A model generated the notes under the pieces. It was not told where the DNA came from, did not search any database, and saw nothing but the letters and a program-made list of their open reading frames with translations. The translations under genes and the position numbers were made by a program. From Gemmatimonadota bacterium (GTDB taxonomy: Bacteria > Gemmatimonadota > Gemmatimonadetes > Longimicrobiales > Gaopeijiaceae), in NCBI GenBank assembly GCA_026706635.1, contig JAPOYJ010000067.1, forward strand, positions 1 to 64,000: a stretch of 64,000 bases of DNA, in the 5' to 3' direction. This document shows, piece after piece, positions 29,852-33,864 of this stretch (positions are counted from its first letter, which is position 1; every line of letters starts with the position of its first letter).

Positions 29852-29909
29852 AGGAGGCGACACCAGCGGGTGTCGGACGCACGCCGAGCTAAGCCATAGG
29901 TACGGGCGT

Positions 29910-30016
29910 TGTAAACCGTGGATTACACATTGTAAAGTATAGATTACACTGTGGGCAGGCGGGAGAAGCGGACCAGCGGGGATGCAGCGCCGCTCCTGCC
30001 GTGGGAGCATTGCTAG
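29910..30016 (+). repeat. Dispersed composite element, complete copy
   Basis: Box at 29910-29948 (TGTAAA-CCGTGG-ATTACA, CAT, TGTAAA-GTATAG-ATTACA), identical in its 39 bp to the copy at 22723. The body GGCGGGAGAAGCGGACCAGC and GATGCAGCGCCGCTCCTGCC follow, then GTGGGAGCATTGCTAG. It is the first of two copies in the 356-nt gap after the giant lipoprotein gene; the space between the two copies holds no recognised gene. Confidence 0.85.
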
Positions 30017-30166
30017 GGGGCGGACCTCGGGTCTAACGTAGGCGAATGCCCGTGCGGGAGTGTGTTCCCCAGTCGTCCACCGGGTCGGAGCTTGCAGAAT
30101 GAGAAGTGCGTCGGTCCCGGCCGTTCCCACGGCAGGCGTTGGCTGAGCGAAGATAGGGGTAAGCGT

Positions 30167-30287
30167 TGTAAACCATGGATTACACATTGTAAAGTACAGA
30201 TTACATTATGGACAAGCGAGCGAAGCGGTCCAGCGGAGGTGCAGGCCTGCTCGAATGCCGTGGGAGCATTGCCCATGGGCTGCTTAG
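30167..30287 (+). repeat. Dispersed composite element, complete copy overlapping an ORF start
   Basis: Box at 30167-30205 (TGTAAA-CCATGG-ATTACA, CAT, TGTAAA-GTACAG-ATTACA), body GACAAGCGAGCGAAGCGGTC, then CTCGAATGCCGTGGGAGCAT and CCATGGGCTGCTTAG. The ATG used by the S9 peptidase (30208) is 3 nt after the box, so the element body encodes the first ~26 residues of that protein. Confidence 0.85.
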
Positions 30288-32433
30288 GCTGCGCCCGCCC
30301 GCCTTGGTCGTCGGCACCCTCCTCACCGCCGCCCTGGCCGCTGGTGCCGTCGCCCAGGGGGGGGGCTACACCCCCGAGCACTACTACCGCACAGTGGGGG
30401 TCGGCGAGGTCGCGCTCTCCCCGGACGGGCGATACGTCGCCTTCACCGTCACGAGGGTGGTTGAGGAGGAGAACCGGCGCGCCCGGCGGATCTGGCTGCA
30501 GCCGCTGGACGGGGGGCGGCCGACCGGCCCCGCGGTGGCGATCACCGGCTCCGGCGACGACTCCAGCGACCCGCGCTGGTCCCCGGACGGGTCGCTGCTG
30601 GCCTTTTCCTCCAAGCGGAGCGACGACCCCAACCCGGTCTGGTTCCTCCGCATCGGAGCGCCGGGCGGCGAGGCGTTCCACATCGAGGGGGTCCACTCCG
30701 CGCCCGTCTGGTCGCCGGACGGAACCCGCATCGCCTTCGTCGAGGCACCGGATGCGGATCGCGACGACGAAGTGCAGGGGGGGGCGCCTGCCAGCGCCGA
30801 GAGCCGAGAGGGGTGGATTGCGCCGGACGCCGTCTCGCGCACCCTCGACCCCGACCGCTTCGACGGCAGAGTCGTCACCTCGACGCGCTACAAGCGGGAT
30901 GGATGGCTGGCGCTGCAACCCCACTACCAGACGGTTCCCAAGCGGCAGATCATGGTGGTGGACTCAGAGGGCGGGGTGCCCGAGGCGCTGACCCACCTCC
31001 CCTTCCATGCGAACGAGCCGGTATGGTCGCCGGACGGCCGTTTGATCTTCTCCGCGGACGAGGGCGAGGACGACGAGTTCGCCACCGAGCCGAGCGGCGA
31101 CATCTGGGCAGTGGACGGCGCCGGGGGGACGGTTCGCCGTCTCACATCCGGCACCGGGAGCTCGGAGTCGCCTGCCGTCTCCCCCGATGGCCACCGCATC
31201 GCCTACCGGTCGCTCCCGACGAGGGGCGCTCAGCGCGATCTCCTCGTCGCGGAGATCGGCCCGGACGGGCACTTCCGGGGCGAGCCCGTCAACCTGACGG
31301 CCGAGTGGGATCTGCGGCCGGGCGAGCCGCGCTGGACGGCGGATGGAACTGCTCTCCTCTTCTCTGCCGCCGTAGAGGGCGATGCGCACCTCTTCCGGGC
31401 GGTGCCGGGCGAGGGGGTGGAGCAGGTCACGCGAGGCGCCCGCCGGCTGTCCTCCTTCTCCTTCTCGGCCGACGGCGCCAACATGGCCTTCGTGGCCACC
31501 GACGCGACCAGCCCGACGGAGCTCTACCTGGGAGACACGGAGGGGAACACCGAGGAGAAGGTCACCCGCTTCAACGACGAGTGGCTCTCGGAGGTGACGC
31601 TCATGCCGGCCGAGGAGCTTCGCTGGAGCTCTGGCGACGGGACCCAGATCCAGGGGTGGATCGTCAGGCCGGTGGCTGGGCCCGCCGAGGGGGCCTCGGT
31701 GCCGATGATACTCAAGATCCACGGCGGTCCGCACTCGGCCTACGGCAACACCTTCTTCCCGACCTTCCACCTCCTCTCGGCGGCCGGATTCTACGTCCTC
31801 TACGCCAATCCGCGGGGATCGTCGGGGTACGGGCACGACTTCGAGTACGCGACGCGCGGCGAGTGGGGCATCGTGGATCGGGACGACCTCCTCGCCGGAG
31901 TGAGGGCGACCCTCGCCACCTACCCGGAGATCGACCCGACCCGGATCGGCGTCTCCGGGGGGAGCTACGGCGGCTTCATGGCGAACTGGCTCACGGCGAC
32001 GACAGACCGTTTCGCCGCCGCGGTCACCTCGCGCTCGATCGCCAACTGGGAGAGCTGGTGGGGGACCTCCGACGCCCAGTCGCTGACCGAATACGAGTTC
32101 TACGGGCCGCCGTGGGAGGAGAGAGACCTCTACCGGCGCCTCTCGCCGATCTCCTATGTGGAGAACGTCACTGCTCCGACTCTCGTCATCCACAGCGAGA
32201 ACGACTACAGGACCCCTATCGGCGACGCCGAACAGTGGTTCATGTCGCTCAGGAAGCTGGGTGTGCCCGTCGAGATGGTGCGCTACCCCAGGTCGTCGCA
32301 CGGGCTCTCCCGGACGGGTGAACCGTGGCTGCTGGTGGACCGGCTGGAGCGCATCCGCAGCTGGTTCGTCCACTACCTGATCGACGCGGCACCGACGGGG
32401 CCTCCGCCGCCGGGCGCGGATCCCTCCGACTAG
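30208..32433 (+). CDS. S9 family prolyl oligopeptidase-type peptidase, exported
   Basis: 741 aa. Residues 1-26 come from the dispersed element. Then a signal-like hydrophobic stretch (PALVVGTLLTAALAAGAVAQ), a seven-bladed WD40/PD40-like propeller (VALSPDGRYVAFT, PRWSPDGSLLAFSS, PVWSPDGRLIFSA) and an alpha/beta-hydrolase domain. The catalytic triad is visible: Ser in GVSGGSYGGFM, Asp in SENDYRTP, His in SSHGLS. It resembles the acylaminoacyl-peptidase/DPP-like secreted S9 enzymes that degrade peptides. Its stop TAG (32431) is the edge of another element copy. The downstream gene is also a proline-specific peptidase, suggesting joint peptide scavenging. Confidence 0.88.
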   Translation: MDKRAKRSSGGAGLLECRGSIAHGLLRLRPPALVVGTLLTAALAAGAVAQGGGYTPEHYYRTVGVGEVALSPDGRYVAFTVTRVVEEENRRARRIWLQPLDGGRPTGPAVAITGSGDDSSDPRWSPDGSLLAFSSKRSDDPNPVWFLRIGAPGGEAFHIEGVHSAPVWSPDGTRIAFVEAPDADRDDEVQGGAPASAESREGWIAPDAVSRTLDPDRFDGRVVTSTRYKRDGWLALQPHYQTVPKRQIMVVDSEGGVPEALTHLPFHANEPVWSPDGRLIFSADEGEDDEFATEPSGDIWAVDGAGGTVRRLTSGTGSSESPAVSPDGHRIAYRSLPTRGAQRDLLVAEIGPDGHFRGEPVNLTAEWDLRPGEPRWTADGTALLFSAAVEGDAHLFRAVPGEGVEQVTRGARRLSSFSFSADGANMAFVATDATSPTELYLGDTEGNTEEKVTRFNDEWLSEVTLMPAEELRWSSGDGTQIQGWIVRPVAGPAEGASVPMILKIHGGPHSAYGNTFFPTFHLLSAAGFYVLYANPRGSSGYGHDFEYATRGEWGIVDRDDLLAGVRATLATYPEIDPTRIGVSGGSYGGFMANWLTATTDRFAAAVTSRSIANWESWWGTSDAQSLTEYEFYGPPWEERDLYRRLSPISYVENVTAPTLVIHSENDYRTPIGDAEQWFMSLRKLGVPVEMVRYPRSSHGLSRTGEPWLLVDRLERIRSWFVHYLIDAAPTGPPPPGADPSD

Positions 32434-32495
32434 CAGCCCGTGGACAGACCTCCCACGGCATTCGAGCGGCGCTGCATCCCCGCTCGACCGCTTCG
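32431..32495 (-). repeat. Dispersed hairpin element at a stop codon, no double box
   Basis: TAGCAGCCCGTGGACAGACC, TCCCACGGCATTCGAGCGGC and GCTGCATCCCCGCTCGACCG, then CTTCG: the reverse-orientation body and hairpin end. The TAG that begins it is the stop codon of the S9 peptidase gene. The CCGTGG/CCACGG stem could act as a 3' processing or termination structure, but there is no T-tract. Confidence 0.8.
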
Positions 32496-32508
32496 ATTCT
32501 GCTAGGAG

Positions 32509-33864
32509 ATGGCGAGAACGGGGCGCTCCGGTCCCACCTTCGACTACTCGGCCCGTCGCCAGGCTCTGTATCCCCGCCTGGAGCGCGGGGCGCTGCTCCT
32601 CCCCGCCGCGCCGGTGCGCTACAAGAACGCCGACTCCGAGTACCGCTACCGGCCCGATTCCGAGCTCCTCTACCTGACGGGCTGGGACCAGCCCGACGCG
32701 ATCGCGCTGATCAGGGGATTCGCCGCCGAGCATCGATTTGTGCTATTTGTGCCAAAGCGGGACGCGAAGGCCGAGCTCTGGAGCGGTCTCAGATCGGAGC
32801 CGGAGGAGTGCGCCGAGCGCTTCGGGGCCGACGCAGCCTACCCGATCGACGAGCTCGCCACACGTGCGCCGGCGCTCCTCGCCGACGCATCGGAGATCTG
32901 GTACCGGCTGGGAACGAGCGAGCGCTGCGACCGGGTGGTGCGGGCGGCGTTGGGGCGGGGGAGGGCCCGCCGGGTGCGCGAGGGCAGGGGGCCCGGCCTC
33001 CTCGCCGACCCCGGCGCTCTGCTGGACGGAGTGCGCGCGGTCAAGGATCCCGCCGAGATCGGGTGCCTTCGCCACGCCGCCGAGATCACGGTCGAGGCCT
33101 TTCGCGAGGCGCTTCCGCTGGTGCGAGGGGGCGCGGGAGAGTGGGAGATCGAGGCCGCGCTGGAGGGTGCCTTTCGCGCGAGGGGTGCCGACGGCCCAGC
33201 CTTCGCGACGATCGTCGCCGCCGGGGCCAACGCCTGCACGCTGCACTACGCCGCAAATTCGGGCCGCATCGAGGAGGGCGACCTGGTGGTCGTGGACGCT
33301 GGCGCGGAGTTCCGCTCGTACGCAGCCGACATCACCCGCACGGTGCCTTCGTCGGGGAGGCTGGGCGGGATCCAGCGGGATCTCTACGGGGTGGTGCTGG
33401 CAGCGCGCGGTGCCGCCCTGGAGGTCTGCGCGCCGAGTGTGGAGCTGGAGTGCGTGCACCGGGCCGCCGCAAGAGTGATCGCGAGCGGGCTCATCGAGCT
33501 GGGCGTCCTCGACTCGTCGCTGGACGAGGCGCTCGAGAAGCGGAGCTACCGTCGCTACTTCCCGCACCGCACCTCGCACTGGCTAGGGCTCGACACCCAC
33601 GACCCCGGGCCGTACCGCCCGGATGGGGAGCTGGCGACGCTCCTGCCGTCGATGGTCATTACGGTGGAGCCCGGTCTCTACTTTCCGCCGGACGATCGGG
33701 ACTTGCCAGACGGCCTCGCGGGGTGTGGCGTCAGGATCGAGGACGATCTGCTGATAACCGCAGCCGGCACCGAGGTGCTGACCGCGGGGCTGCCGGTCGA
33801 GGTGGAGGGTCTTGACGAGCTGATGGGGGGATCGACAGCGCCCGCCAACCCGAAAGGTCGCTGA
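32509..33864 (+). CDS. pepP: Xaa-Pro aminopeptidase (M24B)
   Basis: 451 aa. It removes N-terminal residues preceding proline. The creatinase/aminopeptidase-P N-terminal domain begins with FDYSARRQALYPRL and contains the SEYRYRPDSELLYLTGW motif. The pita-bread domain has the metal ligands Asp in VVVDAGAEF, Asp in AADITRTVP, His in RTSHWLGLDTHD, Glu in TVEPGLYF and Glu in GVRIEDDLL. AGGAG runs almost into ATG 32509. Its stop overlaps the next start (TGATG). Confidence 0.92.
   Translation: MARTGRSGPTFDYSARRQALYPRLERGALLLPAAPVRYKNADSEYRYRPDSELLYLTGWDQPDAIALIRGFAAEHRFVLFVPKRDAKAELWSGLRSEPEECAERFGADAAYPIDELATRAPALLADASEIWYRLGTSERCDRVVRAALGRGRARRVREGRGPGLLADPGALLDGVRAVKDPAEIGCLRHAAEITVEAFREALPLVRGGAGEWEIEAALEGAFRARGADGPAFATIVAAGANACTLHYAANSGRIEEGDLVVVDAGAEFRSYAADITRTVPSSGRLGGIQRDLYGVVLAARGAALEVCAPSVELECVHRAAARVIASGLIELGVLDSSLDEALEKRSYRRYFPHRTSHWLGLDTHDPGPYRPDGELATLLPSMVITVEPGLYFPPDDRDLPDGLAGCGVRIEDDLLITAAGTEVLTAGLPVEVEGLDELMGGSTAPANPKGR

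Follow-up and report, generated by a model that had tools for sequence, protein, structure and literature searches.

In the 2.8-Mb Gemmatimonadota genome studied here (G000), a MITE appears to have inserted among the codons for the signal-peptide n-region of an S9 peptidase gene, and translation of this gene would now start inside the element, adding 26 residues before the native signal. Judged from the sequence, we give this reading a probability of about three in four. The gene lies in the window, a 64-kb stretch of DNA (G000:C52).

The element family

The repeat is a MITE-like element of ~250 nt with terminal inverted repeats and an internal double box of 39 nt, the latter made of two 18-nt dyads (TGTAA-N8-TTACA) with a 3-nt spacer. 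Double boxes number 256 in the 2.8 Mb of G000, where a control pattern gave 0, and 9 in the window, against 0 in 100 shuffles. Arms and fusions were counted in 1.57 Mb of G000 (56% of the genome, taken as stretches), which hold 156 boxes and 202 right arms; in 464 kb, 60 of 65 boxes were intergenic. Aligned copies begin with (CTA)GCAGTCCGTGGATAATC... and have a left arm of ~130 nt 5' of the box (consensus CGCAGAGCGAAGCCACGGGTACGGGCAT), of which shorter variants occur, and an 81-nt right arm, GTATGGACAGGCGAGCGAAGCGGTCCAGCGGGGATGCAGCGCCGCTCGAATGCCGTGGGAGGTTTGTCCACGGGCTGC(TAG). Box-less copies also exist. The terminal inverted repeats are about GCAGYCCGTGGA, often flanked by CTAG; the two ends read GCAGTCCGTGGATAA... 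and ...TTGTCCACGGGCTGC. Like a MITE, the element is short and multicopy and has no transposase gene, for which ~250 nt is too short. TA within CTAG is found on both sides of several copies and is absent from others, as read from aligned copies. A search for an autonomous partner with matching terminal repeats in G000, made for the DDE_3 family alone, found none, and an IS630-type transposase was rejected as the driver, the single G000 copy having different ends (TGTCGTGTCCC). The assembly is a draft, with contig breaks at element repeats.

Boxes are present in 21 of the 22 other genomes of the genus, at 22 to 197 per genome, while outside the genus only single box matches were found, in a few of 36 genomes. 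In the other genomes of the genus the box often stands solo, without arms, in gene gaps (L079, L081, L085, L087-L089, L091, L093, L097 and others, at position 1501), and such solo boxes frequently adjoin or overlap gene stop codons, the TAA of TGTAA serving as the stop. Genome G009 has arms and no boxes. Box and MITE look like separable modules. Genome G021 carries three near-identical element copies in tandem at a spacing of 249 nt (L132:7279, 7528 and 7777).

Read on the element's own strand, the right arm has two open frames. Frame A, taken from the box+3 codon, gives MDRRAKRSSGDAAPLECRGRFVHGLL, and frame B gives ...MPWEVCPRAA, whereas frame C terminates in TAG. By our own estimate from base composition, two open frames over an 81-nt GC-rich arm are about the chance level and give no evidence of design.

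The S9 peptidase gene and its start codon

Table 1. Element copies and coding features around the S9 peptidase gene (window coordinates).
Feature	Position	Strand	Remarks
First, upstream element copy, double box	29910..29948	+	0 mismatches; right arm aligned
Candidate remnant of native start	30099..30146	+	ATG, GGAG 8 nt upstream; proposed by analogy with lptE
Short or degraded left arm, outer limit uncertain	30137..30166	+	left-arm consensus CGCAGAGCGAAGCCACGGGTACGGGCAT in other copies
Double box, TGTAAACCATGGATTACACATTGTAAAGTACAGATTACA	30167..30205	+	0 mismatches; two dyads 3 nt apart
Right arm, predicted to encode 26 N-terminal residues, MDKRAKRSSGGAGLLECRGSIAHGLL, from ATG 30208	30206..30285	+	
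S9 (prolyl oligopeptidase family) peptidase ORF with signal peptide	30208..32433	+	PF00326; orthologues 72-75% identical
Box-less 75-nt copy	32430..32504	-	0 mismatches to GTCCACGGGCTGCTAG

The protein belongs to the S9 family by its peptidase domain (PF00326, E 7.6e-51), PD40 propeller (PF07676, E 2.1e-33) and GGSYGGF motif. An earlier note on this DNA had it begin inside a dispersed element and take 26 residues from it, and this was borne out: the box is a perfect match, ATG 30208 lies 3 nt past its end, and codons 30208-30285 give a peptide with 73% identity to that of the arm consensus. The frame then continues RLRPPALVVGTLLTAALAAGAVAQGGGYTPEHYY, native sequence resuming about 30286 at RLRPPALVV. 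The 80 nt after the ATG, described in the note as element body and hairpin, are indeed element body (the right arm), but the arm folds no more strongly than shuffles (z 0.10) and a stable RNA hairpin was rejected.

Comparison with orthologues, which the note had proposed as a check, agrees with an acquired N-terminus. In none of 22 genomes of the same genus does the best match share this N-terminus, and 20 of the 22 matches have no element there; most have a short native n-region such as MAPQRVHRLRSALVAILAV, MTPRRFHRLHF... or MASRPSRFAM.... The remaining two, G007 and G018, have a double box at the N-terminus with an in-frame ATG inside the box, and supported branches of the S9 tree force three separate origins for the N-terminal elements of these two genomes and G000. 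The native signal of the G000 protein, RLRPP-ALVVGTLLTAALAAGAVAQ, has counterparts of both RLR and hydrophobic core in the orthologues; the element therefore replaced or extended the n-region and did not create the signal peptide. Of the suggestion that the repeat created a signal-peptide start, the part about the start is supported by the replacement of native starts by the element in rdgB and lptE, whereas the core and RLR are native. Nor does the basic stretch sit directly before the core, as had been supposed: further element residues and the native RLRPP intervene.

Upstream of the S9 element lies another copy with arms spanning roughly 29880-30018 (Table 1). Between the two, ATG 30099 reads MRSASVPAVPTAGVG and then meets a TGA inside the left arm, in a frame other than that of S9. 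By analogy with lptE (see below) this ATG could be the native start, now stranded, the orthologue n-regions being too variable to prove it. A putative native Shine-Dalgarno sequence just 5' of the element (GATAGGGGTAAG, like relatives' GGATGGGGGTAAAG) was rejected as left-arm sequence. Downstream, the box-less copy fills the gap between S9 and an M24 peptidase gene, which begins at 32509, and the S9 stop codon TAG (32431-32433) falls within the CTAG at the end of that copy; the element may favour stop codons as targets.

The last stop in the S9 frame sits just before 30193, and the next in-frame ATG, GTG or TTG after ATG 30208 is TTG 30304, within the hydrophobic core. The earlier note's view of this TTG as the sole alternative holds among those three codons, but the frame also contains CTG 30247, 30280 and 30289. 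Its further view that this TTG would leave no positive charge holds, but a start at CTG 30280 or 30289 would keep charge, which the native RLR supplies as well. We infer that translation begins inside the element, at ATG 30208, before which there is no Shine-Dalgarno sequence. A start at or after the element end, from CTG 30280 (MLRLRPPALVV...), CTG 30289 or TTG 30304, would make the element a 5' UTR contributing at most two residues and not MDKRAKRSSGGAGLLECR...; all three codons are in frame, and (M)LRLRPPALVV would be an n-region about as long as those of the orthologues. We consider this improbable: CTG starts are rare in bacteria and have no Shine-Dalgarno sequence ahead of them here, TTG 30304 leaves the n-region without charge, and two genes described below, rdgB and a MobA-like gene, have no such escape codons, so that in-element starts are used elsewhere.

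Constraint on the S9 gene

It could be argued that the insertion simply broke S9, leaving a gene neither translated nor exported and an in-frame reading that is accidental, with one chance in three. The element did enter coding DNA, and the G000 branch in the S9 tree is long (0.5 against a median of 0.06), which could mean relaxed constraint. Yet the 709 native codons contain no stop or frameshift, where about 6 stops would be expected had the ORF drifted neutrally by 10%, and dN/dS is low, at about 0.2-0.25. This constraint and the lack of stops indicate that the gene was probably kept after insertion. The right arm at S9 is 14% diverged from the consensus without an indel, hence not a very recent copy, although insertion ages from consensus divergence are rough, and lptE and rdgB are arranged alike. 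A broken S9 is accordingly very unlikely. Among 69 unfused arms diverged by 10-20%, frame A remains open in only 28. On the element residues in S9 themselves no selection is visible (4 synonymous and 7 non-synonymous changes).

The divergence of the S9 arm also bears on misassembly, by which S9 might have been joined to an unrelated element copy in a draft genome where several contigs (C5, C21 and C85) begin in element copies. At 14% off the consensus, the S9 copy can be assembled uniquely; lptE and rdgB, which both carry elements, are separated in G000 by about 8.5 kb, a spacing similar to that in relatives, and related genomes show the same phenomenon. We regard such an artefact as barely credible.

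Other genes read from the element

In the 1.57 Mb of G000, eight genes are read from frame A without a usable native start: those for S9, LptE, a beta-propeller lipoprotein, another lipoprotein, a MobA-like transferase, an AddA-like helicase, RdgB and a PEMT-like membrane protein. Frame B is used once, for an exported protein at C60:9923, giving a ratio of frames A, B and C of 8 : 1 : 0 among fusions that lost the native start; this list was drawn up manually, using a simple scan for coding potential and inspection. Hydrophobic N-termini occur in six of the nine fused proteins, compared with 25% of 1,196 called genes (binomial P 0.01, for this hand-made list).

The decisive cases are rdgB and lptE. 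For rdgB, all 19 of 19 orthologues place an ATG, GTG or TTG immediately ahead of the conserved LLLATRS, whereas in G000 the site of the start codon is occupied by the element (...RGRLFHGLP|DLLLATRS) and the Ham1 domain starts at residue 2 past it. Since the start site is element sequence, translation must begin in the element or not at all. For lptE (PF04390, E 2e-12), most orthologues share a start like MWTRFRRTSG or MWTRFRRTSGTPGG. In G000 the native start MSRRFRRISGTPDA is intact upstream of the element, but its frame differs and meets a stop in the left arm; LptE itself continues from the right arm. The lptE n-regions of G014 and G009 also contain in-frame element sequence, in frames A and B, with the peptides ...RRSRCSGGFIHGLL... 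(L282, G014) and ...ARMPLGVCPRAAS... (L291, G009). Comparison of these two genes with their orthologues thus supports the use of element starts in G000, both having lost their native start. The AddA-like case is weaker, because relatives start several codons upstream of this point and at a less constant position.

In the MobA-like gene (G000:C13:68685-68805) the ATG that usually follows the box reads ACG; the box itself contains an in-frame ATG and has lost its in-frame stop (TGTAA to TGTCA). Loss of the in-frame box stop is weakly associated with fusion (3 of 8 against 15 of 119, P 0.085); at this P value it was rejected as proof of selection for upstream starts. Frame B also seems to enter internal parts of a GlcF-like gene (G000:C8:27895) and a HupE-like gene (G000:C81:25732), which are possibly element insertions inside genes.

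How the element may supply a start

We propose that the MITE landed among the n-region codons of S9 and cut the gene off from its native start, with stops in the relevant frames within the left arm and box. As the right arm is open from the ATG 3 nt past the box to the terminal repeat, translation would start inside the element and place its peptide ahead of the native RLRPP. The survival of S9 may be due to the tolerance of n-regions, in which nearly any basic sequence will do, and insertions would persist where the arm ATG at once replaces the lost start. Transcription most likely arrives from upstream or from within the element. Initiation would take place at the box-proximal ATG, in a non-SD or leaderless manner, and export of S9 presumably remains intact. 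About half of the called genes of G000 have no Shine-Dalgarno sequence, by a biased estimate.

That frame A is used eight times and frame B once hints at a preference for the box-proximal ATG. This usage would also fit an element that is mainly a promoter or operator, its double box directing transcription from near 30208 into a leaderless mRNA, with coding secondary. The ATG 3 nt past a conserved double dyad without a Shine-Dalgarno sequence, the preference for the box-proximal over the distal ATG, and the boxes without arms in relatives all agree with this. Against it, solo boxes lie in all types of gene gap, often adjoining stop codons rather than promoters, and no consensus sigma-70 promoter was found on the + strand. 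Such a role is compatible with a translation start inside the element, and as the main function of the repeat we think it unlikely. A regulon operator was rejected, given the spread of relatives' solo boxes over all gap types. A more sweeping possibility, about which we are doubtful, is that the MITE acts as a portable translation-start cassette, in which box-linked, perhaps leaderless, transcription would bring ribosomes to the ATG and insertion ahead of a gene or among its first codons would regularly give it a new, basic N-terminus suited to signal peptides, and that dozens of N-termini in the genus have been re-founded in this way, the same genes repeatedly.

Relation to known elements

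In-frame fusions of repeats to genes are already known in bacteria; what is added here is start takeover in lptE, rdgB and repeatedly hit exported proteins. This offers a clear, testable route by which mobile DNA could rewrite protein N-termini without killing the gene, and a caution for gene callers and signal-peptide predictors, as starts may fall in repeats usually treated as non-coding.

The closest precedents are the Rickettsia palindromic elements and the RU-2 element of Yersinia. The former are repeats of about 150 bp with an open frame, found in frame within many unrelated genes, whose products thereby gain an element-encoded peptide (Ogata et al., in the review PMC10969869). As with them, the present element inserts in frame into coding genes and keeps an open frame, with eight frame-A fusions in 1.57 Mb; unlike them, it mostly takes over the start codon and N-terminus rather than adding an internal segment, and its host is a Gemmatimonadota bacterium. 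They are an analogue, likened by description and with no claim of membership, the box here being confined to one Gemmatimonadota genus. The enterobacterial MITEs RU-1, RU-2 and RU-3 have open frames fused to genes (Delihas 2007, PMC2759123; PMC2229807), and RU-2 sits within the predicted signal peptide of Yersinia YPO1552 (PMC2759123, PMC2229807). Those cases were described gene by gene, some of them small or hypothetical, whereas here housekeeping lptE and rdgB lost their native start and several species were hit independently in the same gene. Another short intergenic element with terminal inverted repeats is RUP of Streptococcus pneumoniae, an IS630-type MITE with a TA-type target (PMC2229807); copies of the present element are often flanked by CTAG. 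In contrast to RUP, no autonomous partner was found in the DDE_3 search, the lone IS630-type transposase of G000 having other ends (TGTCGTGTCCC). Set beside these systems, the repeated takeover of start codons, housekeeping genes included, appears to be the new aspect.
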